Source: Acidobacteriota bacterium
Lineage (GTDB): Bacteria > Acidobacteriota > Thermoanaerobaculia > Thermoanaerobaculales > Sulfomarinibacteraceae
Length of the DNA: 40,697 nucleotides
Direction of reading: 5' to 3'
Assembly: GCA_024641545.1 (NCBI GenBank)
Contig: JAHECW010000031.1
Location: 1 to 40,697, forward strand
Below the pieces are notes generated by a model that saw only the letters and a program-made list of their open reading frames with translations, was not told the DNA's origin and did no database searches. Every line of letters starts with the position of its first letter. Positions within the stretch are counted from its first letter, which is position 1. Below are positions 5,864 through 38,134 of the stretch, piece after piece. The position numbers and the translations under genes are program-made.

Positions 5864-6020
5864 CCGGATACCTGGAGGAGGAACCTCGTGGGTGGGGGCC
5901 ACCCTCACCGTCGCACCGGAAAAAGGGTGAAAGGGCTCCCGGATTCACACTTTTCTCCAGATCCGATCGCTCTTCCCGCTCAATGTGTCGTCGGCACCGT
6001 CATCGGCACCACACCATCGG

Positions 6021-6026
6021 TATAAT
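6021..6026 (+). promoter_or_regulatory. Consensus -10 box 6 nt before a start codon
   Basis: A perfect TATAAT is followed by GACCCG and then ATG 6033. Transcription starting 7 nt after the box would begin at or next to the ATG, giving a leaderless mRNA; no ribosome site precedes the ATG. No convincing -35 box is seen about 17 bp upstream. Confidence 0.45.
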
Positions 6027-6032
6027 GACCCG

Positions 6033-10759: not shown

Positions 10760-12937
10760 ATGAACGGAAAAGGATCTCGACGTCTCATGAGCTTGACGAC
10801 GGCCTGCGTGATCGCATCCGCTGCAGTCACTCCGGTCGCATCGGGCGAGGCCATCGACCTCGAGTTCAACCGACCATCCGCGTCCCAGAGCGAGCCCGAG
10901 CGCACCCTGGCCACCCTGGTACGGGTGCGGGGACCCGGCGGGATTCACCTCGACGGCCTTTACCTGCTTTCGCATTCCGGGGATCGAAGCGAGCTGTTCT
11001 CTCAGGAGAACCAATCGATGATCGACAACCCGCTCATTGAGCGACCCTGGAGATTCTGCAGCGTGTTCTCGTCCGGAACTGCCGACGGGATGATCGTCGG
11101 AAGAAACTGGGACAACGAAAACGTCGGATCGATCATCGTCAATTTGTACCAACCCGAAACCGGCTACCGATCGATTTCGTTCTCTAGAGCCATCGACATG
11201 AACCTCCCGTTGAACGTCGACCTTCTCGAGTTCCGAGATCACCCTGTCGCCCGAGGTCTGCTTCTGGCGCCCTTCCACTCGTTCGACGGCATCAACGAGC
11301 ATGGTCTCGTCGTCGCCGTCGCCGGGGTGAAACAGGTCGAAGTGCGCCCACGGGAAGGCAAACAGCTCGCGTATGTCCCGTACCTGATCAGGATGATCCT
11401 CGACCGTGCGAGAAACGTCGACGAGGCGGTGGACGTCGTGTCCGACTACGTCCCGTTCGACCTCGACCCCCACTCCCTCGACTCGCACATGCTGGTCGCC
11501 GATGCTGCAGGGCATTCGGCTGTCCTCGAGTACGTCGGAGACCGGTGGGAGATCTTTCCCGGCACGGGCAATTGGCAGGTAATGGAGAATCGAGCGATCC
11601 ACGGCGCGACCGACGACATGCTCAGAGCCAACGGGTGGCGACACCGGGTCATGTCCGAGGCTCTCGAGAGCTTGGAAAAGAGCCCGGACTGGGAGGAAGG
11701 GCTGGGAATCCTGGAACAGGTCGCGCAAAAAGGCACGGTTTGGTCCGCGGTGTACTCACCTTCGACCCGGGACCTCTATTTCACCGTGTACCAGAACTGG
11801 CACGAAACCTACCACCTCGAGATTCCAGAGAAAACTGCGATTGAAGCGTCTGCGCGTGCAGGCCCAATCGGCAGGACGTACTCCCCAGAGACCATCCGAG
11901 AGGACCTCGCCACTCTCTATCACGATCTCGAAGTCTCGCCGTACGACCTGTTCATCTTCACTGACAAGACCGAGCTCGACACCGAATACGAGAGGCTTCT
12001 CGGCACCATCACCGAACCCATGACCACCCGCGACGCAGCCAGGATGTTCCAGTCCTTCGTGGTGAAGGCGAAGATCTCCCATTTGACTGTCGAGTTTCCC
12101 GTCGAGGCGTTCCGGGAATGGTATCGGGCGGGAGGTCGGCTCTTTCCGTTCGATCTCGTTTTCGACGGTGATCGGCCGCTCATCGCCTATCTGCGGCCGG
12201 GCGCCTTCATGAACCTTTCGTCCAGCGACCTCTCGGAGCAGGAGACGTGGGACAACACGGAGTTCCTGTCGTTCATGGACTCGGTGTTCACCGAGATTTC
12301 CGTCAGGAAACCGAAGATCCTGATTCTCGACATCCGGGGCAATCCGGGTGGGAGCTCCACTTTCAGCAATCCGATGATCGCCTATGTGGCGGACCGGCCC
12401 TTTCGGGAGGCCTCCGAGGCGCGCTTTCGAACCAGCCGCCACACCAAAGACTTCTGGCGGGACCTGCAGGACGTCGACGATCCTATGATCGTGGAGCTGA
12501 AAGAACAGATCATGACCAGGGAGGACGGGGAGCGCTGGAGCGAGGTGGCAGAACCGTATCCACCACGAACGGACGCGTTGCGATTCGAAGGCAGGGTCGT
12601 TGCCCTCGTCGATCGGTTCTCGTATTCCAACGCAGCGGCGGTGGCCGCCATCCTTCAGGACCACGACTTTGCGACGCTGGTGGGCGAGGAGACCTCGTTC
12701 AACCCCTCCAACTGCGGTGGCGTCCACACCTTCAACCTGCCCCACACCCGGATGGAGGTGGTCTATCCGAAGATGTGCGGCGTCAGACCGAGCGGCGACG
12801 TGAGCCCCCATGGCGTCATCCCGGACCACGAGGTGCACCAGGACTACTTCACCGATGAGGACGAGATTCTGGAGGAGGCGTTGCGGATCATCCGGGAGCC
12901 GACGACGGGTACAGGGATCAGCATGGTCGCACTGTGA
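10760..12937 (+). CDS. Secreted fusion: choloylglycine/acyltransferase-type Ntn hydrolase plus S41 peptidase-like domain
   Basis: A 725-residue exported protein with an N-terminal signal segment (about 10-29). Residues 95-360 look like an Ntn hydrolase of the penicillin acylase/C45 acyltransferase group: C100 in RFCSVFSSG is the presumed nucleophile after propeptide removal, followed by GRNWD and HSFDGINEHGLVVAV. Residues 430-710 look like a C-terminal processing peptidase (S41) core: ILILDIRGNPGGSS, then VALVDRFSYSNAAAVAAIL with S623 the likely catalytic Ser, and VGEETSFNP. The usual PDZ domain is not evident. ATG 10760 has GAGGAGG 6-7 bases upstream. The likely task is amide or peptide-bond hydrolysis outside the cytoplasm; substrates are unknown. 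No operon partner is evident. Confidence 0.8.
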   Translation: MNGKGSRRLMSLTTACVIASAAVTPVASGEAIDLEFNRPSASQSEPERTLATLVRVRGPGGIHLDGLYLLSHSGDRSELFSQENQSMIDNPLIERPWRFCSVFSSGTADGMIVGRNWDNENVGSIIVNLYQPETGYRSISFSRAIDMNLPLNVDLLEFRDHPVARGLLLAPFHSFDGINEHGLVVAVAGVKQVEVRPREGKQLAYVPYLIRMILDRARNVDEAVDVVSDYVPFDLDPHSLDSHMLVADAAGHSAVLEYVGDRWEIFPGTGNWQVMENRAIHGATDDMLRANGWRHRVMSEALESLEKSPDWEEGLGILEQVAQKGTVWSAVYSPSTRDLYFTVYQNWHETYHLEIPEKTAIEASARAGPIGRTYSPETIREDLATLYHDLEVSPYDLFIFTDKTELDTEYERLLGTITEPMTTRDAARMFQSFVVKAKISHLTVEFPVEAFREWYRAGGRLFPFDLVFDGDRPLIAYLRPGAFMNLSSSDLSEQETWDNTEFLSFMDSVFTEISVRKPKILILDIRGNPGGSSTFSNPMIAYVADRPFREASEARFRTSRHTKDFWRDLQDVDDPMIVELKEQIMTREDGERWSEVAEPYPPRTDALRFEGRVVALVDRFSYSNAAAVAAILQDHDFATLVGEETSFNPSNCGGVHTFNLPHTRMEVVYPKMCGVRPSGDVSPHGVIPDHEVHQDYFTDEDEILEEALRIIREPTTGTGISMVAL

Positions 12938-23815: not shown

Positions 23816-25438
23816 TCAGCGGTCGGCGAGCAGCCACGCCGTCGCCAGGGCCAGTCGGGCGACCCGCCGGACCTGATCCGCGTCGAGCGCCTCGGCGGTG
23901 TCCCCGGGTTCGTGGTAGGCGGGGAAGAAGTTGCCGAAGAAGCGGATGAACGGGACGCCGGCGCGGGCGAAGTCGCGATAGTCGCTGCCGCCCTCGGTGC
24001 CGTCGGTGCGGTCGAAGTGGAGCGCGATGCCGGTTCCGGCGGCGCCGCGACGCAGCGCCGCGTCGAGCGCGGGCGCGCCGTCGGGAAGCCCGAGCTCGAT
24101 GAAGTCGGCGGGGTTGAGGCCGGTCAGGAGCTCATCGCCGCGCTCGAGGCCGGTGTCTGCGACGAGCTTGGCGATCTCCTCCGGCAGCCAGGGGTGACCG
24201 ATCATGTCGAGGTTGAGGTAGGTCGTGCGCTCGAGCGGCCACAACGGATGACGGACATAGAAACCGGAGCCGAGCTTGCCCTCCTCCTCGCCGGTCCAGA
24301 AGGCGAATGCGACCGTCCGTTTCGGCGCGACCGGGCTCGCGGCGAAGGCCTTCGCGATCTCGAGCAGCGCCGCGACGCCCGAGGCGTTGTCGTCGGCGCC
24401 CGGGTAATCGTCGTCGCCGATGCGCCCGAGGTGGTCGAGGTGGGCGCCGACCAGCACGATCTGCGCCCGGAGCTCGGGGTCGGCGCCGGGGATGACGCCG
24501 AGGACGTTCCGGGTCTCGACCGGGCGCTCGTCCCCGCTCCAGCTGATGGTGGCGGTGACCTCCGGAAGCAACCCGGCGACTCCGCCGCCGGCGCCGAGGA
24601 GCGAGTCCGCGACCGCCGCCGACACCAGCGCGAGCAGCGGCCCGTCGTCGGCGTCCGAGCCGCCGGAGAAGGGCAGGAAGAACCGGTTTGCCACCTCGCG
24701 ACCGCGATCGAGGCGCGCCCCCCAGTCCTCGCGCTCGACCACCAGCACGGCGGCCGCGCCCCGGGACCGCGCCGCCTCGAGCCGCGCATCGTAGCGCTCG
24801 TCGCTGTCCCGGGCATCCCAGCGCGCCCGGAGCTCGTCGGTCTGCCACTCGGCGCCGGCGGGGAGGCCGGCGAGCACGAGGACGATCCTTCCCCGCACAT
24901 CCAGGCCGAGGTAATCGTCGTGGCCGAGGTCCGCTTCACGGATGCCGTGTCCGGCGAACACGACCGCACCGGTGATGCTCTGCGGCGCCGCCGCAGGCGG
25001 CACGACGTCGACGCCGGATGTGAAGACCCGGCCCGAGCTTGCATCCCCATTCCGGCGGGTGACGGTCACCGACCCGTGGAGCCCGCTGATCTCGCGCACC
25101 GGGACCGCCTGGAACCGGGTGCCGGCGTCGGCGCCCGGCGCCGCGATCCCGGCGAGCTCGAGTGCCGCCGCCACGTACTCGGCCGCGGCGTCGAGACCGC
25201 GGTCGCCGAGGCCCCTGCCCGCCAGACCCGGCGAAGCGAGGAAGGCGATGTGCGCGGCCAGCGCGGGCGCGTCGAGACCGGCGACCGCGGCCGCCATCGT
25301 TCCGGGGAGCGGCTCGACCGGCTGCGGCAGGACGAAGTCGGCGGCGCGGCCCGCCGCGGTCTGATCCGGATTTCCGGCGGCGCCCGCCGGAACGGCGAGG
25401 GCGAGAGCGAGACAGAAGACTGCGGTCGGTCGTCGCAT
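23816..25438 (-). CDS. Secreted M28 zinc aminopeptidase with PA domain
   Basis: A 540-residue exported peptidase. The signal peptide is residues 1-22 (VFCLALALAVPAGAAG). A protease-associated insert spans about 115-310. The M28 catalytic core has GAHLDHLG (333-338 region, zinc His), GADDNASG (bridging Asp349), FWTGEEEGKLGS (catalytic Glu pair near 384-386), NLDMIGH (Asp411) and a late His in PAYHEPGD. It should release N-terminal amino acids from peptides in the periplasm or outside. ATG 25438 has AAGGAG 9 bases upstream. It is the last gene of the minus-strand cluster, 73 bp after the racemase gene. Confidence 0.9.
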   Translation of the reverse strand: MRRPTAVFCLALALAVPAGAAGNPDQTAAGRAADFVLPQPVEPLPGTMAAAVAGLDAPALAAHIAFLASPGLAGRGLGDRGLDAAAEYVAAALELAGIAAPGADAGTRFQAVPVREISGLHGSVTVTRRNGDASSGRVFTSGVDVVPPAAAPQSITGAVVFAGHGIREADLGHDDYLGLDVRGRIVLVLAGLPAGAEWQTDELRARWDARDSDERYDARLEAARSRGAAAVLVVEREDWGARLDRGREVANRFFLPFSGGSDADDGPLLALVSAAVADSLLGAGGGVAGLLPEVTATISWSGDERPVETRNVLGVIPGADPELRAQIVLVGAHLDHLGRIGDDDYPGADDNASGVAALLEIAKAFAASPVAPKRTVAFAFWTGEEEGKLGSGFYVRHPLWPLERTTYLNLDMIGHPWLPEEIAKLVADTGLERGDELLTGLNPADFIELGLPDGAPALDAALRRGAAGTGIALHFDRTDGTEGGSDYRDFARAGVPFIRFFGNFFPAYHEPGDTAEALDADQVRRVARLALATAWLLADR

Positions 25439-25511
25439 CGGGGTTGGCTCCTTGGCGGTTCGGGCCGGTCCGAAAGGCCGGCGGTTGATCGGGCGTCGGC
25501 TGCGCATCGGG

Positions 25512-26660
25512 TCAGCGCAGCCGCTCGCTGTGGATGGTGAACGCGGCCAGCCGGTCGGGCGCCACCGTGACGCCGATGCCGGGGCCGGGCGGCACCTCGA
25601 TGAAGCCTTCCCCGTCAAGCACCACCGGCGGATCGGCGATGTCCTCGACAAAGTAGCGCCGGGTCTCCGAGGTGTCGCCGGGGAGCGAGAAACCGTCGAC
25701 GGTCTGGAGGTGGATGTTCACCGCCCGCCCGATCCCGGTCTCGTCCATGCCGCCCGACCACACCGGGATGCCGTGCGCCGCCGCGTGGTCGACGATGCGC
25801 AGCGACTCGATCAGCCCTCCGACCCTGCCCTGCTTGAGGTTGAGGATGCGGCAGGCGCCGAGCGCGATCGCCGCGGCGGCGTCGTCGAGGTCGTGGACCG
25901 ACTCGTCGAGGCACAACGGGGTGGTGAGCCGCCGCTGCAGGATCGAGTGCTGGTAGATGTCGCTGTAGGACAGCGGTTGCTCGATCATCGTCAGCGCGTA
26001 GTCGTCGAGACGCGCCAGGTGATCGGCGTCGGAGAGGGCGTAGTCGCCGTTGGCGTCGACCATGAGCGGGAGGTCCCCAAAGCGCTCGCGGACGGCTCGG
26101 ACGTACTCCAGGTCCTTGCCCTTCTTGACCTTCATCTTGACCCGGTGGTAGCCGGCGGCGACCGCCTCCTCGACCGCTGCAAGGAGCTCGTCCGGGGTGT
26201 CCTTGAGACCGATGCTGACGCCCGACATGATGCGCCGTCGCGGGCCGCCGAGCAGCTCGTGCAGCGGTCGCCCGCTGCGCTTGGCGGCGAGGTCGACGAG
26301 GGCGTTCTCGACCGTCGCCTTGGCCATCTGGTGGCCGCGGACGCGGCGGAAACGCGCGCCCAGCTCGCCGATGGTGATCCCCGGTTCGACGATCGGGAGA
26401 AGGAAGTCCTTGATGATGTGGCGGGCCGTCGACGTCGTCTCGGACGCGTAGTAGGGATCGGGATCGGCCACGCACTCGCCCCAGGCGGTGAGGCCGTCGC
26501 CGTCGAGCCGCAGCAGCAGCGCCTCCTTGACCGTCCACTCGGCGGTGCTGATGGCGAAAGGGGTGATGAAAGGGATGCGGACCACCACGAGCTCGATGCG
26601 GTCGACGGCGCCGATCCGCTCGCCGGCGATTCCGTGCCACGACCGGGTGGTTGCGACCAT
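25512..26660 (-). CDS. Enolase-superfamily N-acylamino acid racemase / o-succinylbenzoate synthase-like
   Basis: A 382-residue enzyme of the MenC/NSAR subgroup. All catalytic positions are visible: KMK at 175-177 (acid/base lysines), metal ligands D202 (VDANGD), E227 (IEQP) and D252 (LDES), and the second lysine K276 (NLKQGRVGG). The intervals from the first Asp on match those of Amycolatopsis NAAAR. The family either makes o-succinylbenzoate (menaquinone path) or racemises N-acyl amino acids. Being among peptidases and an M20 hydrolase, and with no men genes beside it, favours racemisation or epimerisation (inference). ATG 26660 lies 2 bp after the M14 stop; a downstream start is possible because about 20 residues precede the fold. 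Confidence 0.87.
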   Translation of the reverse strand: MVATTRSWHGIAGERIGAVDRIELVVVRIPFITPFAISTAEWTVKEALLLRLDGDGLTAWGECVADPDPYYASETTSTARHIIKDFLLPIVEPGITIGELGARFRRVRGHQMAKATVENALVDLAAKRSGRPLHELLGGPRRRIMSGVSIGLKDTPDELLAAVEEAVAAGYHRVKMKVKKGKDLEYVRAVRERFGDLPLMVDANGDYALSDADHLARLDDYALTMIEQPLSYSDIYQHSILQRRLTTPLCLDESVHDLDDAAAAIALGACRILNLKQGRVGGLIESLRIVDHAAAHGIPVWSGGMDETGIGRAVNIHLQTVDGFSLPGDTSETRRYFVEDIADPPVVLDGEGFIEVPPGPGIGVTVAPDRLAAFTIHSERLR

Positions 26661-26662
26661 GG

Positions 26663-28144
26663 CTAGCGGACCACGCGGAGCACCGGCAGTGTGCCGTCGG
26701 CGCCCGCCAGCTCGCGGAACCGGGGGTACTGGTAGAGGCCGTACATCGCCGCCGGCTCGACAATCAGGGCGGCGCGCACCGCGGCTTCGCCGACGAGCGG
26801 GACCCACAAGCTGCCGGGCGCGAGGTCGACGGCCGCGGCCTCGCCGCAGCGAACGATCTGCCGGCCCTCGTAACGGCTGTAGACCTCGTCGAACTCGTCC
26901 TCGACGCGCAGCAACTCGCAGCTCTCGGCGGCGAACGAACGCGGCGCTGCAAGCTCCTCGAAGGGGATGCCGTGGCGCTCGAGCAGGGCGCGGAAAGGGG
27001 CCGCGGCCGCGGCCGGAACCGCGTACCCGAGCGGGGTCGGCACCGTGCGTTTGACCGCCATGGTGGTCATCATGTTCGCCGTCGCGACCGATGCGGTGCG
27101 ACCGGTGGCCTGGTCGAGGACGGGGAACTCGGTCACCGTGGCCTCCGGGTTGACCCACAGGTAGTTGGTCGGGAGGAAGGCGGGCAGCGGGCGGCGCCTC
27201 GCGTCCTCGATCGTCGCGAGGTCCTCGGCACGATGTCCGTCGCCCCGCAGGATCTGCCCGAACAGCGCAAGATAGGCGTCGACGCGGTTGCCCAGGTCGG
27301 CGTCGCGGTCGCCGTCGGCGTGCCGCGCCGCGGCCTCGATGATGAACGACAGGCCGCCGTACATCCCGAGGCCGTTGAGCCCGCCATCGACATCGGGCGC
27401 CGACGGCCGCTGCTCGTCGTTCGGCGGGACGCCGCCCACCCAGTAGCGGAGAAACCGGTGGCCCGCCGTGCGCACGGCCGCGTCCGCGCTGCCGAGGAAG
27501 CGCAGCGCAGCGTCGCGGACGCGGCGGTCGAAGAGCGGGTTGTCGAGCGAGTCCATCGTGATGTCGGGCCACTTCAGCCAGCCCCGCGCGCGGTAGCCCT
27601 CGGAGTCGCGGCCGAACTCGTGGCAGTCCACCACCACCTGCGGCAGCAGCCGCCGCACCAGCCGGTGGAGGGTCTGAGTCTCAGGTTGCTCGAGGACCAT
27701 GTGGTCGCGGTTCAGGTCGGCGCCGGCGGAGTTTTCCCGGGTCCCGGCCTCGGCGCCGTCCGGATTGACGATCGGCATCACCCACAGGTCGACATCCTCC
27801 GGGAGGAGGCCGGGCTTCCCGGCGATGTCGCGCACGAGGTAGAGCAGCGCGTCCGTACCTGCGACCTCGTCCCCGTGCTGCCGCGCATAGAGGAAGATCC
27901 GCCACGTCCGCCCTTCGCCGCCGCCGAGGTGGACCAGGTAGAGCGGCCGACCCGCGGCGCTCGCCCCCTCGACCGACACGCTCACCCCCGGTTGCCCGTC
28001 GACCCGACGGAGGAATTCCTCCATCTCGGCGAACGCGGTCGTCCTGGTCAGCGTGCGGTGGTCGTCGGGAAGCGCGGTGCGAAGGTCCGGCGTCGCGGCC
28101 GGAGCGGCCGCGAGCGCGGCGAGTGCGAGCAGCTCGATGATCAT
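26663..28144 (-). CDS. Secreted M14-family zinc carboxypeptidase-like protein
   Basis: A 493-residue exported protein with a signal peptide (1-18). M14 residues are present: zinc ligands H90 and E93 in ARQHGDEVAG, H175 in VDCHEFG, the substrate Arg in ADLNRD (R146), and the catalytic Glu in SFIIE (270). The C-terminal 170 residues form an extra domain typical of bacterial M14 proteins. Such enzymes remove C-terminal residues from peptides or act on peptidoglycan or N-acyl substrates; which one is not clear here. ATG 28144 has GGAGGG 5-6 bases upstream. The racemase gene starts 2 bp after its stop, so the two are probably coupled. Confidence 0.88.
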   Translation of the reverse strand: MIIELLALAALAAAPAATPDLRTALPDDHRTLTRTTAFAEMEEFLRRVDGQPGVSVSVEGASAAGRPLYLVHLGGGEGRTWRIFLYARQHGDEVAGTDALLYLVRDIAGKPGLLPEDVDLWVMPIVNPDGAEAGTRENSAGADLNRDHMVLEQPETQTLHRLVRRLLPQVVVDCHEFGRDSEGYRARGWLKWPDITMDSLDNPLFDRRVRDAALRFLGSADAAVRTAGHRFLRYWVGGVPPNDEQRPSAPDVDGGLNGLGMYGGLSFIIEAAARHADGDRDADLGNRVDAYLALFGQILRGDGHRAEDLATIEDARRRPLPAFLPTNYLWVNPEATVTEFPVLDQATGRTASVATANMMTTMAVKRTVPTPLGYAVPAAAAAPFRALLERHGIPFEELAAPRSFAAESCELLRVEDEFDEVYSRYEGRQIVRCGEAAAVDLAPGSLWVPLVGEAAVRAALIVEPAAMYGLYQYPRFRELAGADGTLPVLRVVR

Positions 28145-28244
28145 GCCGGTCCCTCCGTGGCCCGCGGCGCGGCGCCGGCGGATCTGCCATTGCCCGTTTC
28201 CACTCCGCTGCAGGCCGGCCCGCCGGCGCTCCACCGGCTCCGCA

Positions 28245-29663
28245 TCAGAACGGCCCCCAGTTGAGCAGGACCGGCGGCACCAGCAGTGCGAGGCTCAGCA
28301 CGACGAGCACGATCATCAGCGGCAGGAACCAGCGCGCCCAGGTCTCCCACGGGATTCTCGCCATCGCGAGGACGCCCATGGTGACCGCCGACGTCGGCAG
28401 GATCGGGTTGATGAACTCGCAGAGCTGGTAGGCGTAGACCGTGGTCTGGCGGCTCAGCCCGACGAGGTCGGCGAGAGGCGCCATGATCGGCATCGTCAGC
28501 GCCGCCTGTGCGGTTCCGGAGTGGATGAAGAAGTTGATGACCGACTGGACGACGAACATCGCCTGCGCGGCCATGACCCCGGGAAGCCCGGAAATCGCCT
28601 GCGAGCTCGAGTTCAGGATCGTGTCCAGAACCTGCGCCTCGCGCGAGATGATGAGCAGCGCCCGGCCGCAGGCGATGATCAGCGAGACGCCGACCATGTC
28701 CTTCGCCCCGGCCACGAAGCTCGAGGCGATCGCGCTCGGCCGCAACCCGGCTACCACCCCGATGATCAGCCCCATGGCGAGGAACAGCGCTCCGATCTCC
28801 TCGATGAACCACTTGGCCTCGAGGATTCCCCAGATCAGTACCCCCATGCTGGCCGCGAAAATCACGATGACCGCGGCCCGGCGACCGGTCCACGGCTCGG
28901 TGCTGGTGACGGCGCTGAGGCCCGAGAGATCCCGGGCGCGGTCGAGCTCGAAGACCGGGCTCGACTCCGGCCGGCGCTTCACCCGGGCCGCGTACACCAT
29001 GACCCAGGCCACGATGACGCCGGTCCCGATAAACCAGGTCAGGACGCGGTAGCCGAGCCCCGAGTACAGCGGCAGACCCACCAGCCCCTGGGCGACACCG
29101 ACGGTGAAGGGGTTGAAGAACGCTGCGGCGAAGCCGGCCGCCGCGCCGAGAAAGGGGATCGACACGCCGACGATGGAGTCGTAGCCGAGCGACAGCGCGA
29201 GGGGGACGAAGATCAGGATGAACGGGATGGTCTCCTCGGCCATCCCGAAGACCGAGCCGCCGAGGGAGAAGACGACCATCAGCAACGGGATCAGGAACCG
29301 CTCGAGAGTCGGTCGCGCGACGAGCGCCGCGGTGATCCGCCGGATCGAGAAGTCGATGGCCCCGGTGGCCTGGACCACCGTGAATGTGCCGCCGATCAGG
29401 AGCAGGAACGCGATGATCTGAGCGCCGTCGAGAAAGCCCCGGATCGGTGCGATCATCAGCCACTCCGGGCCGAGGCGGATCTTGTCCACCTGATGGTAGG
29501 TGCCGGGAACCGTGACCTGCCGGCCGTCGCGGTCGGCGTGCTCGTAGCTGCCCGACGGGATCAGCCACGACAGCGCCAGCGTGAGCACGATCAGCGAGCT
29601 CACGATGACCAGGGTGTGGGGCAACCGGATCGGTGACTGGGTCGCGTTCGCGGCACGGCTCAT
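28245..29663 (-). CDS. YfcC/DcuC-type transporter
   Basis: A 472-residue polytopic membrane protein with 11-12 hydrophobic segments. It matches the YfcC/C4-dicarboxylate anaerobic carrier family: an N-terminal helix ending in LSWLIPSGSYEH, GMAEETIPFILIFVPLAL, FFNPFTVGVAQGLVGLPLYS, and the C-terminal QLCEFINPILPTSAVTMGVL. Members are thought to move amino acids, peptides or dicarboxylates across the inner membrane. Here it lies between the M20 and M14 peptidase genes, so import of the peptide or acyl-amino acid products is likely (inference). The start at 29663 is followed directly by the first membrane helix; an acceptable GAGAGG lies upstream. The M20 gene ends 18 bp before it. Confidence 0.88.
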   Translation of the reverse strand: MSRAANATQSPIRLPHTLVIVSSLIVLTLALSWLIPSGSYEHADRDGRQVTVPGTYHQVDKIRLGPEWLMIAPIRGFLDGAQIIAFLLLIGGTFTVVQATGAIDFSIRRITAALVARPTLERFLIPLLMVVFSLGGSVFGMAEETIPFILIFVPLALSLGYDSIVGVSIPFLGAAAGFAAAFFNPFTVGVAQGLVGLPLYSGLGYRVLTWFIGTGVIVAWVMVYAARVKRRPESSPVFELDRARDLSGLSAVTSTEPWTGRRAAVIVIFAASMGVLIWGILEAKWFIEEIGALFLAMGLIIGVVAGLRPSAIASSFVAGAKDMVGVSLIIACGRALLIISREAQVLDTILNSSSQAISGLPGVMAAQAMFVVQSVINFFIHSGTAQAALTMPIMAPLADLVGLSRQTTVYAYQLCEFINPILPTSAVTMGVLAMARIPWETWARWFLPLMIVLVVLSLALLVPPVLLNWGPF

Positions 29664-29681
29664 GGGGTTTCCCGCCTCTCC

Positions 29682-30890
29682 TCACAGGGTTGCGAGCAGG
29701 TCCGCTAGGAGCACCATGCGTTTCTCGAGCGAGCGCAGGTCGAGCCATTCGTCCCGGGTGTGCATCCCGCCGCCCACCGGGCCGAGCCCGTCGACCACCG
29801 GCACGCTCGCGGTGTCCGTCATGTAGTTAGGGAACGAGATCCCGCCGCGGTTGTCCTCGACCTCGAGCCGGAATCCCCGGGCCGCGGCCAGCGCGACCGC
29901 GCGGCGGACCAGCTCCTCCCCGGGGCCGCGGGGGTCGACGGGAGGCGCCGACACCCCCGTGATCAACGTTGCGACCACCTCGTGGTCGGCCGCGATCCGA
30001 TCGGCGGCGTCGGTCAGCTCGGCCAGGACCGCGGCGCCTTCCGCGGCCGACAGAAAGCGAACCTCACCCTCGGCCACCGCCCGTTCGGGAACGATGTTGC
30101 GCTGACGCGAGGTGCCGAGGAGGGCGTGGTTGTCGGCCAGGGCGTCGACAAAGTCGGTGGTCCCGGCCACCAGCCGCCCGACGTTGACCGTCCGCCCGGC
30201 CCCCGGGACGGAGAGCCGCTGCGCCGCGGCGCACCAGTCGGCCGCCGCCGCCAGGGCCGACCGACCCTCCCAGTAGGCGAGGCCGGAGTGGGCGGGTCGC
30301 CCGACGACCTCGAGACGCCACTCGGTGAGACCGCGCCGGCCGGCGACCAACGACTCGGCGTCGCCCCGCGGTTCGCCCGGTTCGAGGACGAGGACCGCCC
30401 TGGCGCGGGCGCTCCAGTGCCGGACCGCACGCTCCGAGATCGACCCGCTCGACTCCTCGTCGGGCACCGCGACGAGGGTGAGCCCGTCGGGCATCCGCCC
30501 CCCCGCCGCGGCCAGCAGGTCGAGCGCACCGACGAGTGTGGCGAGGCCGCCCTTCATGTCGAGCGCCCCGGTGGCCTCGAGCCGATCGCCGGCCACCTTC
30601 GGTGGGACAGCCGGAAGAACCGTGTCCAGGTGGCCGACGAGCACCAGCCGGCGGTCGCCGGCGGCCGGTCCGGACGCCACGAGGACCGGCTGCAGGACAC
30701 CGTCGGCGTCGCGCTCCTCGCGGACGTCGCAGGCCAGACCGCGGCGGGACAGCTCGGTGCCGAGCCGCGCCGCGACGCGCCGCAGACCGTCCGCGTCCCC
30801 GCTCGGTGACGACAGCGCGCAGAGCTCGACGAGGAGCGCCAGCGTGCGCTCGAAAACCTCGCCGCGAACCGGCCGGCGATCCTCGGTCAC
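29682..30890 (-). CDS. M20 metallopeptidase, glutamate carboxypeptidase (CPG2)-like
   Basis: A 402-residue cytoplasmic hydrolase (no signal peptide). All M20 zinc and catalytic residues are seen: H87 and D89 in GHLDTV, D111 in GALDMKGG, the Glu pair 145-146 in PDEESS, E170 in VLEPGEP and H377 in GGGMHTRDE. The dimerisation domain lies near 180-290 (GRPAHSG). CPG2-like enzymes cut C-terminal Glu or Asp or remove acyl groups from amino acids. It starts with GTG in the sequence GTGA, overlapping the TGA stop of the cyanophycinase-like gene, which implies translational coupling. With the NSAR-type racemase it could form an N-acyl-D to L-amino acid route. Confidence 0.9.
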   Translation of the reverse strand: MTEDRRPVRGEVFERTLALLVELCALSSPSGDADGLRRVAARLGTELSRRGLACDVREERDADGVLQPVLVASGPAAGDRRLVLVGHLDTVLPAVPPKVAGDRLEATGALDMKGGLATLVGALDLLAAAGGRMPDGLTLVAVPDEESSGSISERAVRHWSARARAVLVLEPGEPRGDAESLVAGRRGLTEWRLEVVGRPAHSGLAYWEGRSALAAAADWCAAAQRLSVPGAGRTVNVGRLVAGTTDFVDALADNHALLGTSRQRNIVPERAVAEGEVRFLSAAEGAAVLAELTDAADRIAADHEVVATLITGVSAPPVDPRGPGEELVRRAVALAAARGFRLEVEDNRGGISFPNYMTDTASVPVVDGLGPVGGGMHTRDEWLDLRSLEKRMVLLADLLATL

Positions 30891-31846
30891 CAGTCTTCTC
30901 CGGCATTGTCGGCGCGCGGAAGCCGGTCGGAACCCGGTTGATCGCCGGGACCGGTTGTCGGTTGCCCGCCGGCGCCGGGGTCGGACCCGGTGACGACCCG
31001 GCGCGTCGCGAGGTCGAAGACCTCGCCGGCCAGCAGCAGGTCGACCCGCAGGCCGTGCACCCCGAGGTCGTCCTCCGCGGCTCTGCCGGCCCGCCGGCTC
31101 ACCGCTGCGGCGCTCGCGTCGAGCACCATGACGGCGCGGTCGCCCATGACCTCGAAGGTCCCGTCCGGGCGGACCCAGACGGCGGTGTCCTCGTCGATGC
31201 CGACGCCGAGCATCTCCGGGTGCTCGAGGATCACCGAGATCAGCCGGTTGGAACGTTGGCGGGCGATGAAGTGCTGGTCGACGATGACATCGCGGAACAA
31301 TCCCAGGCCGCGCACGAGCTCGACGCTCCCGGCGCGGATGACCTCGAAGTCGCCTTCGCCGGTGATCATGAGCGGGCTCTGGCAGGCGGTGCCGGCCGAG
31401 GTGCCCCCGACCACCGCACCGCGAGCGAACGCCGCGGCGACGGCGTCACCCACCGCCGTGTCGAGGAGCGCGCGGGTGATGCGGGCCTGGTCGCCGCCGC
31501 CGAAGAAGATACCTCCGGCCGCGGCCGCAGCTTCGGCCCAGTCCGGCCGCATGGCGTCATCCCGGTTCTTGATGTCGAGGGTGACGACGTTCGGGCAGCC
31601 GTACTTCTCACGGAAGAGATCGGTGTAGTAAGTGGCGACATCCGCGTCGTCGGACGCGGTCGGAATGGCGACGATTCGCGCCTGCGGCCCCCCGGCGAGC
31701 TCGATGAACTTCGCCATCGCGTCGGCGGGCTTGTCGCCGCCGCCGATCAGCACCAGGTGGCCTTGCGGCGCCTCGGCGGCGAAGGTGCCGGCGGCGATCA
31801 TCGCCCCGGTCGAGAACGCGATCAGGAATGACAGCAGGGATCGCAC
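30887..31846 (-). CDS. Secreted cyanophycinase-like S51 peptidase
   Basis: A 319-residue exported protein. A signal peptide (1-23) is followed by the class I amidotransferase-like S51 fold: HLVLIGGGDKP, FFGGGDQ, the nucleophile S150 in VGGTSAGTA, and DQHFIARQRSNRLISVI, the hallmark of cyanophycinases. Cyanophycinase releases beta-Asp-Arg dipeptides from cyanophycin; secreted relatives may act on other beta-aspartyl peptides. The start is GTG 31846, with AGAGAGGTGAT ending 6 bases upstream; this gives the signal peptide, while the longer open frame does not. A terminator-like hairpin separates it from the TonB receptor gene 85 bp upstream. Its C-terminal 30 residues are low-complexity and rich in Gly and Pro. 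Confidence 0.88.
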   Translation of the reverse strand: MRSLLSFLIAFSTGAMIAAGTFAAEAPQGHLVLIGGGDKPADAMAKFIELAGGPQARIVAIPTASDDADVATYYTDLFREKYGCPNVVTLDIKNRDDAMRPDWAEAAAAAGGIFFGGGDQARITRALLDTAVGDAVAAAFARGAVVGGTSAGTACQSPLMITGEGDFEVIRAGSVELVRGLGLFRDVIVDQHFIARQRSNRLISVILEHPEMLGVGIDEDTAVWVRPDGTFEVMGDRAVMVLDASAAAVSRRAGRAAEDDLGVHGLRVDLLLAGEVFDLATRRVVTGSDPGAGGQPTTGPGDQPGSDRLPRADNAGEDW

Positions 31847-31874
31847 GATTGCATCACCTCTCTCGCCGACTCGT

Positions 31875-31914
31875 TGAAAATGGGGAGGGGCGGCCGATCG
31901 ACCGCCGCCTCCCC
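31875..31914 (-). terminator. Terminator/attenuator between receptor and peptidase genes
   Basis: GGGGAGG...CCTCCCC arms (7 bp, extended by GCGG/CCGC) form a strong GC-rich hairpin at 31882-31914, followed on the minus strand by ATTTTCAAC. It sits 18 bp after the TonB receptor stop. It would trim transcription before the downstream peptidase genes. Confidence 0.6.
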
Positions 31915-31931
31915 GTTCGTGTGACTGGATT

Positions 31932-34682
31932 CTAGAAGGAGAACCGAAGGCCGACCCGGATCTGACGCGGCGATTCGATGTCCGTCGGCTCGCCGTACGA
32001 GCTCCGCGGGTACCAGCCGTCCGCGCCCTCCGACGGATAGTAGTTGGCATACCGGGCGGCGACGTCGAGCACCGTGGCCTCGTTGGTCAGGTTGAAGACC
32101 TCGATCGACGCGGTCAGATGGTACCTGGAGGAGAAATTCGCGGTCCATGCCAGACGCAGGTCGATGGTGCTGCGGTCCGGCAGCTGCTGGGAGCCGCGAT
32201 CGGTGAGCCAGATGTAGTTACCCGTCGAGGCGTTGTAGTCGAGCTCGTAGATCCGCGCGTACGGGGTCCAGTACCAACCGGAGAGGTAGGTGTACTGGCC
32301 GCCGAGCTCGAAGTTGAGCGGCAGGTTGACCGACCCGGAGAGCTTGAACTCCCACTCGCTGTACTTCTCCATCCTCCCGTCGGCGTTGGTGAAACCGTTG
32401 CGATCCTCGTACTCGTACTCGTAGGAGTTGTTCTTGAGCATGTTGCCGTTCATGTCGGTCCAGACGAGTGATGAGCGGGCCTGCCAGCCGTGGGCGAACC
32501 GTTTCTCGAAGCGGAGGATCGCCGCCTGGTAGTCGCGGTAGCCGCCGTTGTCGGTGGTGAGGACGAACTCGGGCTGCGACAGCAGGTTCCAGACCGGCAG
32601 GTCGCCGCCGCCGAACGGGTTGTCGGGGGCGGTGAGCGCCTCGTAATCCTGGTTGACGTTGACCATCGCCATCATGGAACGGAAATTCCGGCTGATCAGG
32701 TCGACGCCGATCAGCATCTCGGCGCCGAGCTGCTGCTCGAGGGTCACGACGAACTCATCGGCGTACGGGTGGTTCACCTTGCCCATGGTTCCCATGGCGG
32801 CCACCGGCACGTCGCAATCGGTGTAGTCGAGGGTGTCCTCGCTCCAGTAGCACTCCTGGTTCGGGATCACGCCGTTGCCAGAGATCTCGCGATCGAAGAG
32901 ATAGGTGAACATCTTCTCGTGGTATCGGCCCCAGTGCGCCTTCAGAGCGGTCTTGGCGTTGCCGAAGATGTCCCACACGAAGCCGACCCGCGGGTCGATG
33001 AAATCGACGTCATAAACCGTCGAGCTGCCGTGGCCCTCCTGCCATCCGCCGCGGTAGGCGCCAAAGCGGAGGCCGACGTTGACGGTCACGCGGTCGAGCC
33101 GCATCGAGTCCTGCGCGTACAGCGCGAGCCCGGAGAACTTGGGGTGCTGGTCGTACTCGCCGTAACCCATGAGGATCGAGGCCCACGGGCTGACGCCGCA
33201 CGAGGGGTCGGCGAAGTAGGCTTCGGACGAGTCGCAGACCGTCGAGTCGTCGTAGTAGGTGAAGCCGCCGTTGCGCCGCCACACATCGGACGACACCGCC
33301 TGTTCGTATCCCGCGCCGAACTTGAACTCATGCGAGTCGTTGTCGCCGAACAGCCCGTCCTTGAACAGGCTCCAGGAGCCGTCGAGGTTGTACACCCGAC
33401 GGTAGGCGAGATCGGTTGTCGAGGCGTTGTACCAATCGACCTCGGTGTCCCAGTAGTCGACGTGCCCGGGCGTGTCGGTGCCGTTGTAGGGAAGGTAGTC
33501 GTCGCGCCCGCTGTAGCCGGTGAACTTGACGTTGAAGAAGTTGTTGGAGTTGACCAGCTTCTCCCAGTGGGCGGCAAAGGTGTAACCGGGCGCGTCCTGC
33601 TTCGACGACGCCTCGGGCAGCGTGTACTCGCCGACCCCGCGGCGCTCGTTGACCAGCCCTTCGTACTCGCCCATGAACATCAGCCGGTCGGAGTCGCCGG
33701 CCTGGTAGGTCAGCTTGCCGAGAAAGCGCGGTATCTTGCGGTCCGATGTGGCAAGAGCGCCGTAGGGCGTGGTGACCTGGTGCCAGTACTCGGCCGAAAC
33801 GAAGTACCACAGGTTGTCCCTGAGCACCGGGCCGCCGACGCTCACCGCGGCGTCGGAGAACTTGAACACGTCGGCGTCGGTGGTCGGGTCGTTGTCGGCC
33901 GTCCACGACGCCGGCTGGAAGTAGTACTCGACATCGCCGTGGAACTCGTTGCCGCCCGACTTGGTGACGCCGTTGATGATGCCGCCGGTGTAGCCGCCGT
34001 ACTCGGCGGGAGCACCGAGACCGGCGACCTGGATCTCCTGGAACCACTGGATGGCGGGCAGAACCCAGTGCTGGCCGCCGCCGGTGTCGGCAACGTTGAC
34101 GCCGTCGAGGGTGAATGCGTTCTGGCGTTCCTCGGTGCCGCCGTACGCCAGCATGGCGCTGCCGCTGGACTGGAAGTAGTCGATGTTCACCCCGGGTGCG
34201 GAGCGGATGATGTTGTAGTAGTTGCGGGGCAGCGGCTGCGTGGTCAGGAAGTCGGAGTCGAAGCTGGTTCCCACCGCATTCGACACCACGCTCACCAGCG
34301 GGGCCTCGCCGGTGACGACGATCTCGTCGGCGGCCTCCGCCATGGTCATCGTCAGATCGACCGCCAGCGACTGGCCGAGCGTGACCTTGACCCCTTCCCG
34401 GCGAACCGTTCTCATCCCGACGAGCGAGGCGTCGAGGACGTAGGTGCCGGACGGCAGCGAGGGGAATCGGTAGATTCCCCTGACGTCCGTGACCGCCCTC
34501 ATCTCGCCGGCGACCAACGAGTCCGAGGTCGCCGTCACGGTGACTCCCGGCAAGGGGGCGCCGTCGGGGCCCTCGACCGTGCCCTGAATGCTTCCTGTCA
34601 CGCTCCCCTGGGCGCCGGCCGAAGCCGCCAGACCGAGTGCGAGCAGGACCAGAATTGTGTTTCGCAGTGCATCAGATCGCAT
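31932..34682 (-). CDS. TonB-dependent receptor, Oar-like, with carboxypeptidase-regulatory domain
   Basis: A 916-residue outer-membrane receptor. The signal peptide is residues 1-24 (ending ASAGAQ). A CarboxypepD_reg-like domain (about 26-110) starts GSIQGTVEGPDGAPLPGVTV. The plug domain starts near DEIVVTGEAPL and contains the conserved FTLDGVNV and GGIINGVTKSGGNEFHGDV. The remainder is a 22-strand-type barrel ending in RVGLRFSF with the terminal Phe expected for outer-membrane insertion. ATG 34682 has AAAGGAGG 5 bases upstream. As the first gene of the minus-strand cluster of peptidases and a transporter, it should import peptides or related polymers. The 461 bp upstream (34683-35143) hold a promoter candidate and no gene. 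Confidence 0.92.
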   Translation of the reverse strand: MRSDALRNTILVLLALGLAASAGAQGSVTGSIQGTVEGPDGAPLPGVTVTATSDSLVAGEMRAVTDVRGIYRFPSLPSGTYVLDASLVGMRTVRREGVKVTLGQSLAVDLTMTMAEAADEIVVTGEAPLVSVVSNAVGTSFDSDFLTTQPLPRNYYNIIRSAPGVNIDYFQSSGSAMLAYGGTEERQNAFTLDGVNVADTGGGQHWVLPAIQWFQEIQVAGLGAPAEYGGYTGGIINGVTKSGGNEFHGDVEYYFQPASWTADNDPTTDADVFKFSDAAVSVGGPVLRDNLWYFVSAEYWHQVTTPYGALATSDRKIPRFLGKLTYQAGDSDRLMFMGEYEGLVNERRGVGEYTLPEASSKQDAPGYTFAAHWEKLVNSNNFFNVKFTGYSGRDDYLPYNGTDTPGHVDYWDTEVDWYNASTTDLAYRRVYNLDGSWSLFKDGLFGDNDSHEFKFGAGYEQAVSSDVWRRNGGFTYYDDSTVCDSSEAYFADPSCGVSPWASILMGYGEYDQHPKFSGLALYAQDSMRLDRVTVNVGLRFGAYRGGWQEGHGSSTVYDVDFIDPRVGFVWDIFGNAKTALKAHWGRYHEKMFTYLFDREISGNGVIPNQECYWSEDTLDYTDCDVPVAAMGTMGKVNHPYADEFVVTLEQQLGAEMLIGVDLISRNFRSMMAMVNVNQDYEALTAPDNPFGGGDLPVWNLLSQPEFVLTTDNGGYRDYQAAILRFEKRFAHGWQARSSLVWTDMNGNMLKNNSYEYEYEDRNGFTNADGRMEKYSEWEFKLSGSVNLPLNFELGGQYTYLSGWYWTPYARIYELDYNASTGNYIWLTDRGSQQLPDRSTIDLRLAWTANFSSRYHLTASIEVFNLTNEATVLDVAARYANYYPSEGADGWYPRSSYGEPTDIESPRQIRVGLRFSF

Positions 34683-35143: not shown

Positions 35144-35836
35144 TCACTGCACGTTCAAGCGCTGCAGCTCAACCGGGACGATGTCGTCTCCGATCCTGAC
35201 GTAGCCGAGATACCAGCCGGGGTAGGCGACCGAGGTGTCGGAGCCGAAGTCGAACCGGACCTGGATGGTCTGACCGGTATAGGCGGACAGGTCGAAGCAC
35301 TGCTGGATCCAGTTTTGCGACGGGGTCGCGCTGGAGCCGGTCCAGCCGGGTTGGTTGTCCACACAGTAGGCGTAGAAGGTGGCGCTGAGGCTGACGGTGG
35401 CGTTGTAGACCGGGCTCGGCTGCAGCACCACGTCGTTCACCTTGACGTTGACGCCGTCGTAGTTGGTTTCGGTCTGGAGGTAGCTCAGGATCTCCATCTT
35501 GTCGGTAGCGACAGTTACTTCGAAAGGAGGCGACAGCAGCCCCTCGCCGGCGTTGTTCGGGTAGTTGCCGGCGAGAACAGTTCCCCACACGGTGCCCGGT
35601 GCGCCGGAGATGGTGCTGGTTCCCCAAGCCCAGACCTCCCCACCGCCCCCCGTGACATCACAGGTGGTGGTGGCGAAGCCCTGGTCCGAGACCGCGAAGT
35701 CCCAGTCGTGAGCTACGTACACCAGATTGCACGGGACCGTCGGCAGCTCCGCCATGGCCGGCGCCGGTGGTTTCTCCTGCGCCATGACGAAGCCCACGAT
35801 CGCCAATAATCCGACCAGAAGCGCGATTTTCCTCAT
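35144..35836 (-). CDS. Secreted beta-sandwich protein with PVELQR-type C-terminus
   Basis: A 230-residue exported protein: signal peptide 1-19 (LLVGLLAIVGFVMA), a short Pro-rich linker, then a beta-sandwich of the MAM/immune-inhibitor-A-like kind. The pattern includes VAHDWDFAVSDQGF, GEGLLSPPFEVTVATDK, CFDLSAYTGQTIQVRFDFGSDTS and PGWYLGYVRIGDD. This fold is common in extracellular adhesion or substrate-binding modules. It ends in IVPVELQRLNVQ, matching the last residues of the CHRD protein at 5315. ATG 35836 has GGAAGGGGA upstream. It lies directly upstream of, and co-directional with, the TonB cluster, but with a separate promoter between them. The exact family is not recognised. Confidence 0.75.
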   Translation of the reverse strand: MRKIALLVGLLAIVGFVMAQEKPPAPAMAELPTVPCNLVYVAHDWDFAVSDQGFATTTCDVTGGGGEVWAWGTSTISGAPGTVWGTVLAGNYPNNAGEGLLSPPFEVTVATDKMEILSYLQTETNYDGVNVKVNDVVLQPSPVYNATVSLSATFYAYCVDNQPGWTGSSATPSQNWIQQCFDLSAYTGQTIQVRFDFGSDTSVAYPGWYLGYVRIGDDIVPVELQRLNVQ

Positions 35837-35935
35837 GGTCTGTGTCCCCTTCCTGTGGCGGATCTCACAAATGTGTTTCCGAATCCGAACGGCGGGTTTG
35901 ACTTTTCTGAGATAAGGCGCCCGGAGTGTACCACG

Positions 35936-38134
35936 ATGAGACCTGGGCAACCAGGGTCGACGGGTCCAGGTGCGCTCCGCTATTCTCAGGGCACAGTGCA
36001 ACCCTCGATCCTCATGCGCCGGCTGGTGATCGGCAGCGTGCTCGCAACCGCCTGGGTTCCCTGTGTGGTCTCGAGGTCTCTCGTTTTCCCCTACATGTCG
36101 GCCAAAGGTCACCTCTTCCGACTTCTGGTGGACCTTGCGGTCGCCGGTTGGGCGATCTTGGCGGTTACCCGCCCGTCGCTGCGCCCGCGCTCGAGTCCGA
36201 TTCTGACAGCGCTGGCGATCTTCGTCGTCTGCCTGGGCGCTGCCGACGTCGCCGGCGTCTGTCCCGCCCGCAGCCTGCTCGGCAATCTCGAGCGCATGGA
36301 GGGCTGGTTCACCCACATCCATCTGCTGGCGTTCTTCCTTGTGCTCCCGGCTGCGTTGGCGGGCGAAGGACTCTGGCGCCGCTTCTGCCAGCTCTCTCTG
36401 ACCGCCAGCGTGGTCGTCACCGCCGTCGCCTTCGGCCAACTGGTCGGGGCCTGCCCGCTGGACTCCCCCGCCGGACGGGTCGACGGCACCCTGGGTAACC
36501 CGAGCTTCCTGGCTGCCTACCTGGCCTTCCACATCTGGCTCGCCGGTTTCCTCGCCCTGCGCCCGGCCGCCACCACCCGCGCTCGTCTGTGTCTCGGGGC
36601 AATCGTCGTCGTCGAGGGAACGGCGCTGTTTTTCACCGCAACTCGGGGGACGATGCTCGGACTGGTGGCGGGCACGTTGGTGGCATCCTGCCTGATTCTG
36701 TGGTCGGAGCGGGAGAGGGTGCGGGTGAGGCGGCTCGCAACCGTGGTCGCGGTCGGCGGATTGCTGGTGGTGGCCGGCCTCGTGCTCCTGAAAGAGAGCC
36801 CCATCCTCACGACCAGTCCGGTCCTCGCGAGGTTCGCCGCGATTTCGCCGACGGAGCTCACTTCCCAGTCGCGTCTGCTGGCCTGGCGGGCGGCGCTCCA
36901 GGGCGCCGCCGAACGGCCTTGGATCGGTTGGGGCCAGGAAAATTTCGCCGTCGTCTACGCCCGCCACTATGATCCCCGCCTGTACACCCAGGATCCGTTC
37001 TTCGATCGGGTGCACAACGTCTTCCTGGAGTGGCTCGTCGCCGGCGGTGTGCTCGTCCTTCTCGCCTTCTGTTCGGTCCTGGCCGCCTTCCTGTTGGTGG
37101 TCTGGCGCGGGGAGACATTCAGCGCGGTGGAGCGCAGCCTGCTTACCGGCCTGGCCGTCGGTTATGTGGTTCACGGATCGCTGCTCTTCGACACCCTCAC
37201 CAGCCTCATGCTCGCGACTGCGCTGCTGGCCTGGGTCCACTCGCGATGCACCGACTCTCGGCCGCCGCCGGACTCCGGCGCTTCGGAGCACCGCATCGCG
37301 TGGGCGGTCGTCGCAGTGGCGGTCGCCGCGGCCGGGTCCGCAAGCGCCGTCCTCACCTGGCGCACGCTCGAGGCCGAGCGGGCGCTGCTCCGAGCGGTCC
37401 GACCGGAATCGCGTGGCGTGGATGGCGTCCTGACGGCGTTCAGGAGCGCTCTCCGGCACTGGACTCCGGCGACTCCCAAGGTGCGCGAGCGGTTGCTGAG
37501 CACGACCGTCGAAATCGGCCGGTCACGACCGGCGGGCACCGTTGCTCTCGCCCAACTCACCGCCCTCGCATACCGGGAGATGACCCGGCAGGTCGCGGCC
37601 GGCCCGCTCGACGTGCGCCCGCGGGTGGCGCTGGCCTCCTTTCTGTGGCGTTTCTCGGCATTCGACGAGGCCGAGTCGCTGCTCGAGCGCGCGCACGACC
37701 TCGCCCCGCGCATGCAGCACATTCTGTTCGAGCTGGGTTCGCTCCAACTCGAGCAGGGGAGGACCGAGGACGCGCTGCGGACCTTCCGCTCCGCGTACGA
37801 TCTCGAACCGGGTTGGACCGAGGCGCGCAACCGGTACGCGGCCGCGGCCATCATGGCGGGCCGAGGGCAGCTGGCGGACGAGCTGTTGCTGCCCGCGGAA
37901 GGCACCGTCGCCCTGGCTGACGAGTGGCTGATCGCCGCTTTCAGGGCGTCGGGCGACCTGCCCAACCTGGTCGCGGCGCTGGAGGCCCGGCTTCGTGCAG
38001 CCCCGGCCGAGGGCAAAGAAAGCGACAACGTGCGTGCGTCCCTGGCGGCGGCGCGGACCGCCCTGACCGAGCGGGTGATGAGCGACGATTTCGAGCTCCG
38101 GACGACCGCCGCGTGGTCCGGGGTGATTCCCTAG
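35936..38134 (+). CDS. O-antigen ligase/polymerase-like membrane protein with C-terminal TPRs
   Basis: A 732-residue protein. Residues 27-480 contain 11-12 membrane segments with the Wzy_C/O-antigen ligase pattern: GTLGNPSFLAAYLAF, FTATRGTMLGLVAG, then the long periplasmic loop with WRAALQGAAERPWIGWGQENF and FDRVHNVFLEWLVAGG. Residues 560-700 form tetratricopeptide-like helices (DEAESLLERAHDLAP, LEQGRTEDALRTFRSAYDLEP). Members join or polymerise glycan chains on a lipid carrier in the periplasm, or glycosylate proteins. ATG 35936 is taken for its GGAG 9 bases upstream; ATG 36014, at the first helix, is an alternative. No other glycan genes are nearby, so the substrate cannot be inferred. Confidence 0.85.
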   Translation: MRPGQPGSTGPGALRYSQGTVQPSILMRRLVIGSVLATAWVPCVVSRSLVFPYMSAKGHLFRLLVDLAVAGWAILAVTRPSLRPRSSPILTALAIFVVCLGAADVAGVCPARSLLGNLERMEGWFTHIHLLAFFLVLPAALAGEGLWRRFCQLSLTASVVVTAVAFGQLVGACPLDSPAGRVDGTLGNPSFLAAYLAFHIWLAGFLALRPAATTRARLCLGAIVVVEGTALFFTATRGTMLGLVAGTLVASCLILWSERERVRVRRLATVVAVGGLLVVAGLVLLKESPILTTSPVLARFAAISPTELTSQSRLLAWRAALQGAAERPWIGWGQENFAVVYARHYDPRLYTQDPFFDRVHNVFLEWLVAGGVLVLLAFCSVLAAFLLVVWRGETFSAVERSLLTGLAVGYVVHGSLLFDTLTSLMLATALLAWVHSRCTDSRPPPDSGASEHRIAWAVVAVAVAAAGSASAVLTWRTLEAERALLRAVRPESRGVDGVLTAFRSALRHWTPATPKVRERLLSTTVEIGRSRPAGTVALAQLTALAYREMTRQVAAGPLDVRPRVALASFLWRFSAFDEAESLLERAHDLAPRMQHILFELGSLQLEQGRTEDALRTFRSAYDLEPGWTEARNRYAAAAIMAGRGQLADELLLPAEGTVALADEWLIAAFRASGDLPNLVAALEARLRAAPAEGKESDNVRASLAAARTALTERVMSDDFELRTTAAWSGVIP

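Follow-up and report, generated by a model that had tools for sequence, protein, structure and literature searches.

We have analyzed a locus of seven genes within a stretch of 40,697 nucleotides of acidobacterial DNA (hereafter the window), belonging to a genome of 5.38 Mb in 310 contigs. The locus is real, conserved and modular; it is a variant of the known cyanophycin-scavenging cluster, and its distinctive part is an enzyme of the NSAR/OSBS family. To judge from its gene content, it probably scavenges extracellular cyanophycin or very similar beta-aspartyl-arginine material. Cyanophycin is multi-L-arginyl-poly-L-aspartate, with residues of the L form only, and is a major nitrogen store of cyanobacteria. 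Its use by other bacteria is only partly known, and some phyla have isoaspartyl dipeptidases that still await identification (PMC10206079). The locus offers a testable cyanophycin route in Acidobacteriota, in which the M20 enzyme is named as candidate dipeptidase.

The seven genes all lie on the minus strand, in the order and with the families given in an earlier note on this DNA, and its reading of them as a substrate-use locus is borne out. A TonB-dependent receptor (31932-34682; PF25183 3e-30, PF13620 5e-18, Plug 2e-4), with an N-terminal CarboxypepD_reg domain and a predicted role in outer-membrane uptake, is followed by a secreted S51 peptidase (30887-31849) and a cytoplasmic M20 metallopeptidase resembling carboxypeptidase G2 (29682-30890; PF01546 3e-19, 1cg2 1e-23). 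Then come a YfcC/DcuC-family inner-membrane transporter (28245-29663; PF03606 2e-96), a secreted M14 zinc carboxypeptidase (26663-28144; PF00246 2e-14), the NSAR/OSBS-family enzyme of the enolase superfamily (25512-26660), which we call the racemase, and a secreted M28 aminopeptidase (23816-25438; PF04389 2e-39). Read by eye, the N-termini of the receptor, S51, M14 and M28 proteins are hydrophobic and Sec-like, and those of the M20 protein and racemase are not. The GTGA overlap reported for the S51 and M20 genes is confirmed (GTG at 30890-30888, TGA at 30889-30887). The 2-bp gaps were slightly overstated: only the interval between M14 and the racemase is 2 bp, the others being approximately 18 bp (M20 to YfcC), 73 bp (racemase to M28), 82 bp (receptor to S51) and 100 bp (YfcC to M14). 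A promoter scan across the locus region gave nothing exceeding shuffled expectation. The receptor matched no SusC model and there is no SusD among the locus proteins, so the SusC/SusD pair that marks a polysaccharide-utilization locus of the SusCD type is lacking here. Just upstream of the receptor, the C-terminal part of the frame 35144-37459 (minus strand) encodes a small secreted InhA-like MAM-domain protein, which is possibly part of the locus.

The S51 protein matches the curated cyanophycinase model TIGR02069 with 185 bits against a cut-off of 126.6, and its best PDB matches are the cyanophycinases 7uqv and 3en0. Gln101, Asp172, Gln173, Arg178, Arg180 and Arg183 of CphB are critical for activity and for the pocket beside the catalytic Ser132, in the account of Law et al. 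(2009) given in PMC3235067. With His174 and Glu201, which are also catalytic, added to the seven residues named there, the set comes to nine (Q101, S132, D172, Q173, H174, R178, R180, R183 and E201 in CphB numbering). The window protein has retained every one of them, and so have the homologues aligned, without exception. The protein thus combines the active-site and binding residues of CphB with a Sec-like N-terminus (by eye), and is predicted to be an extracellular exo-cyanophycinase. The score and the nine retained residues fit the earlier suggestion of a beta-aspartyl or cyanophycin-like substrate.

We also searched for cyanophycin genes elsewhere. No cyanophycin synthetase was found above the cut-off in four genomes, the best match in the present one scoring 61 bits against a cut-off of 850. 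A synthetase lacking above cut-off is what one would expect of a scavenger; taken with the cyanophycinase residue set, no IadA above cut-off and a single IaaA-type gene, it gives the profile of an external scavenger. In Thermoanaerobaculia, Sec-exported cyanophycinases without a synthetase have already been proposed to act as external scavengers (PMC8528874), and the adjacency of receptor and cyanophycinase has also been published before (PMC3400609). A cyanophycin-scavenging cluster comprises a cyanophycinase, IadA or IaaA, and a transporter (PMC10206079). Our locus resembles this in its secreted cyanophycinase, its adjoining transporter genes (TonB receptor and YfcC/DcuC carrier) and the absence of a synthetase above cut-off. 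It differs in lacking IadA, IaaA and CphZ, and in having M20, M14, M28 and the NSAR-family enzyme. The genome search gave no IadA above cut-off, there was no match to CphZ within the window, and the one Asparaginase_2 (IaaA-type) gene present is on a different contig from the locus. Since our search of the cluster turned up no isoaspartyl dipeptidase belonging to a known family, the locus appears to work like the published type of cluster without being a strict member of it.

Does the locus contain another enzyme that might split the S51 product? The M20 protein aligns with the poly(aspartic acid) hydrolase 7ljh (2e-10), and its gene adjoins S51 in five relatives whose S51 locus has no racemase. 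Since the receptor-S51-M20 set is kept without the racemase in congeners (G001, G002) and in other relatives (G006, G015, G023), M20 is a candidate for the dipeptide hydrolase that cleaves this product. The YfcC protein scored 364 bits with a basic amino acid antiporter model, below the cut-off of 500. The M14 active-site motifs HxDE, NRDH and DxHE are conserved across homologues. A marginal AstE_AspA match (25.7 versus 25 bits) had led us to consider M14 as a relative of CphZ; profile comparison gave this a probability of 0.4%, and it was rejected. M28 is adjacent in several related loci.

Are the seven genes conserved as a unit? Locus contents in relatives rest on tblastn, automatic gene calling having missed some genes in GC-rich loci. 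Co-localization is indeed conserved in relatives. A fixed seven-gene operon is not: two modules recur in Acidobacteriota, receptor-S51-(M20 or PGA_cap) and (M20)-YfcC-M14-racemase-(M28), and these occur apart, rearranged and in differing orientation. They face each other in six genomes (G034, G030, G143, G144, G146 and G147), whereas in the window and in G050 both point the same way. Receptor homologues (40-74% identical) stand beside S51 in related genomes. The gene grouping exceeds chance: of the 13 genomes in the class with the racemase clade described below, 8 have the cyanophycinase and racemase genes no more than about 6 kb apart; in G004 and G145 a contig end falls between the two. S51 was above cut-off in 10 of 13 genomes with the clade versus 49 of 136 without it (Fisher p = 0.006, indicative only, as the genomes are related).

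The core set also occurs alone. Loci L164, L165, L166, L167 and L169, from the same genus and other relatives, contain a three-gene unit of TonB receptor, S51 and M20 with no racemase, and other relatives keep receptor-S51-PGA_cap without it. As the core set is found without the racemase in sister genomes, the racemase is, on this distribution, accessory and dispensable for the core process. The PGA_cap-family protein is secreted. Several related loci (L033:11073-12311, L155:4682-6049, L156:8924-10315 and others) have its gene placed between S51 and the racemase module; it is absent from the window. The protein is weakly similar to the lasso-peptide Trp epimerase MslH (124 bits, cut-off 700).

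The solved structures nearest to the racemase are 1wue and AmyNSAR (1sja). It shares with the NSAR/OSBS family (AmyNSAR 1sja, DrNSAR 1r0m, Enterococcus 1wue) the fold family, the KxK motif and second lysine, the metal ligands, and an Arg three residues past the catalytic lysine; the catalytic lysines and metal-binding acids (K175/K177, D202, E227, D252, K276) are conserved. Might it be simply the organism's o-succinylbenzoate synthase (MenC) for menaquinone, present here by happenstance? It passes TIGR01928, an NCBIfam model labelled o-succinylbenzoate synthase (NSAR/OSBS type), with 305 bits against a cut-off of 200.65. However, menB fell below the cut-off in this genome (145 versus 342.7 bits) and 39 of 40 relatives likewise had none above it. 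The genome also contains two VitK2_biosynth (MqnA/MqnD-family) genes of the futalosine pathway, and the racemase is missing from congeners. These results leave the MenC assignment with almost no probability, and we have rejected it; the earlier note had allowed that its proposal would fall if the enzyme were the only OSBS for menaquinone, and that objection fails with it. Elsewhere in the order, G022 (C56:18301-20890) has a true menB beside an enolase-family gene in an apparent men operon, the other members searched mostly having genes of the futalosine pathway.

A scan of 84,980 species genomes for the racemase gave 80 loci, 54 of which (58-82% identical) group with the window enzyme. A quickly built tree, in which some outgroup branches are long, has a branch of SH-aLRT 99 that divides 53 clade rows (the window enzyme among them) from Acidobacteriaceae NSARs of 45% identity, 1sja and 1wue. 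Asp306 (in GGMDETG) is present in all 57 readable clade rows, and the residue is Leu in all 29 others; the position aligns with Ile293 of AmyNSAR, which is changed in the variant 5fjp. Four acidic residues are clade-specific (D66, D68, D306 and E332), though for D66 and D68 there is some bias, VADPDP[YF]Y having been among the scan patterns; D306 and E332 are free of it. The window enzyme is thus unlike the rest of the NSAR/OSBS family in forming its own clade, with Asp at the position of AmyNSAR Ile293, extra acidic residues, and linkage to cyanophycinase and YfcC. Asp306 and the other acidic residues would fit a cationic substrate. Near relatives of the racemase occur in MAGs of Holophagae, Thermoanaerobaculia and other Acidobacteriota, which makes an uncultured member of this phylum the most likely host. 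The clade extends to Aminicenantes, Ignavibacteriota, Bacteroidota, Spirochaetota and Oxalobacteraceae, although misbinning may affect some MAG labels. Searching the literature yielded no relevant account of a racemase linked to cyanophycin, or of residue R266 in NSARs.

Members of this racemase clade in Oxalobacteraceae (Undibacterium, Duganella, Rugamonas and others) are found within a differently built cluster, comprising a cyanophycinase, a TonB receptor of another Pfam family, YfcC, a secreted M20, a CphZ-like hydrolase, AstA and an AraC-type regulator. Its YfcC is 35% and its secreted S51 31% identical to those of the window, and this S51 is also above the cut-off. The AstA (arginine succinyltransferase) is above the TIGR03243 cut-off, and the CphZ-like protein has 8ein as best PDB match (269 bits). 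CphZ is a cyanophycin dipeptide hydrolase, associated with the Aot operon (Sharon et al., 2023, as cited in PMC10206079); a protein of this type belongs to the Oxalobacteraceae version and is absent from the window locus, whose M14 is unrelated to it by profile comparison. Across the 54 clade loci the commonest neighbor is YfcC (26), followed by TonB receptor (22), S51 (17, a count that reflects the sequence covered, many contigs being short), AstA (12) and CphZ (12). At 26 control loci with GGMLE-type NSARs, S51, YfcC, AstA and CphZ all numbered zero, and there were two weak receptor matches. Several clade loci (Aminicenantes, some Ignavibacteria, Pelomonas) have no cyanophycinase near the racemase within the sequence covered, which counts against the cyanophycin reading. 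That one type of enzyme occurs in two differently built clusters, on the other hand, speaks for its being functionally tied to basic substrates derived from cyanophycin.

The Oxalobacteraceae arrangement of AstA, AraC, CphZ-like protein, secreted M20, cyanophycinase, receptor, YfcC and NSAR is seen at L077:1-11107 with equivalents in L082-L094, and is apparently a full cluster for catabolism of cyanophycin to arginine. Rugamonas aquatica has a second cluster beside the first (L090:11462-18268), with two S51 genes, a TonB receptor, and CphZ-like and YfcC-like genes. In two Ignavibacteriae loci (L053:2788-4671 and L059:3736-5586) the racemase has a hydrolase of the S15/CocE type nearby, which in L053 bears a T9SS tail. 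A gene resembling cocaine esterase, located next to cyanophycin genes, has been mentioned as a possible isoaspartyl dipeptidase (PMC10206079).

The pairing of an NSAR with M20 led the earlier note to a route from D- to L-amino acids via N-succinyl derivatives. D-Arg would be acylated (for example succinylated), racemized by the NSAR, and the L form deacylated by M20. Work on Geobacillus reportedly describes the conversion of N-succinyl D- to L-amino acids by an NSAR, an M20 desuccinylase and a GNAT succinyltransferase. Our locus likewise has an NSAR-family enzyme, with both catalytic lysines, together with an M20, and an AstA arginine/ornithine succinyltransferase gene stands beside the racemase in 12 loci of the Oxalobacteraceae type. 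Against this, AstA, the only succinyltransferase family searched for, was found in none of eight acidobacterial genomes with the racemase, the present one included. The M20 resembles carboxypeptidase G2 and not a desuccinylase, the genes sit among secreted peptidases and uptake genes, unlike the Geobacillus pathway, and the secreted cyanophycinase would be left unexplained. The route finds no support in this genome, and we regard it as unlikely.

Less likely still is a more general scavenging of peptides, in which S51 would act on aged isoaspartyl or acidic peptides, alongside generic peptidases, and the racemase on N-acyl or D-residue peptides of necromass. The three secreted peptidases do belong to broad families, no cyanophycinase appears in the sequence covered at several loci of the racemase clade, and the PGA_cap protein occurs in several relatives. 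Yet S51 has kept the pocket set R178/R180/R183 and passes the cyanophycinase model, and the context in Oxalobacteraceae is one of basic amino acids.

How, then, would the scavenging of cyanophycin proceed? The secreted S51 would free beta-Asp-Arg dipeptides from the polymer, the TonB receptor and YfcC-type carrier would import them, and accompanying peptides would be trimmed by the secreted M14 and M28. Cleavage of beta-Asp-Arg would fall to the cytoplasmic M20 or to an IaaA-type enzyme encoded elsewhere in the genome. The NSAR-type enzyme would act on beta-Asp-Arg, or on some other acylated arginine, at the alpha-carbon of the arginine. We infer the substrates of these steps, that of S51 included, and racemization or epimerization as the reaction of the NSAR-type enzyme. 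The beta-aspartyl group is a 2-aminosuccinyl group, which makes beta-Asp-Arg a close analogue of the N-succinyl-amino acid substrates of the family. Tentatively, an acylated arginine such as beta-Asp-Arg may be the substrate of the racemase. Against this, cyanophycin is all L, so the need for a racemase has no explanation; as a guess, it might salvage dipeptides with D-Arg from aged material. If the racemase does epimerize beta-Asp-Arg, this would be an unexpected and previously unrecognized stereochemical step in cyanophycin catabolism. It is more doubtful whether the Asp306 clade as a whole is a dedicated beta-aspartyl-arginine (or beta-aspartyl-lysine) epimerase, maintained in several phyla and taken up independently by the differently built cyanophycinase clusters of Acidobacteriota and Oxalobacteraceae. 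The analysis delimits a clade of NSARs for which a cationic substrate is predicted, in a family whose members often carry annotations as menaquinone enzymes.

Two further genes on the plus strand of the window were noted. A single open reading frame at 10760-12937 has an unusual combination of matches, to an AAT/CBAH domain (penicillin acyltransferase/choloylglycine hydrolase type) and, at the C-terminus, to an S41 peptidase domain, and a large protein encoded at 5985-9113 has a match to the Reg_prop sensor propeller and a GGDEF diguanylate cyclase domain.
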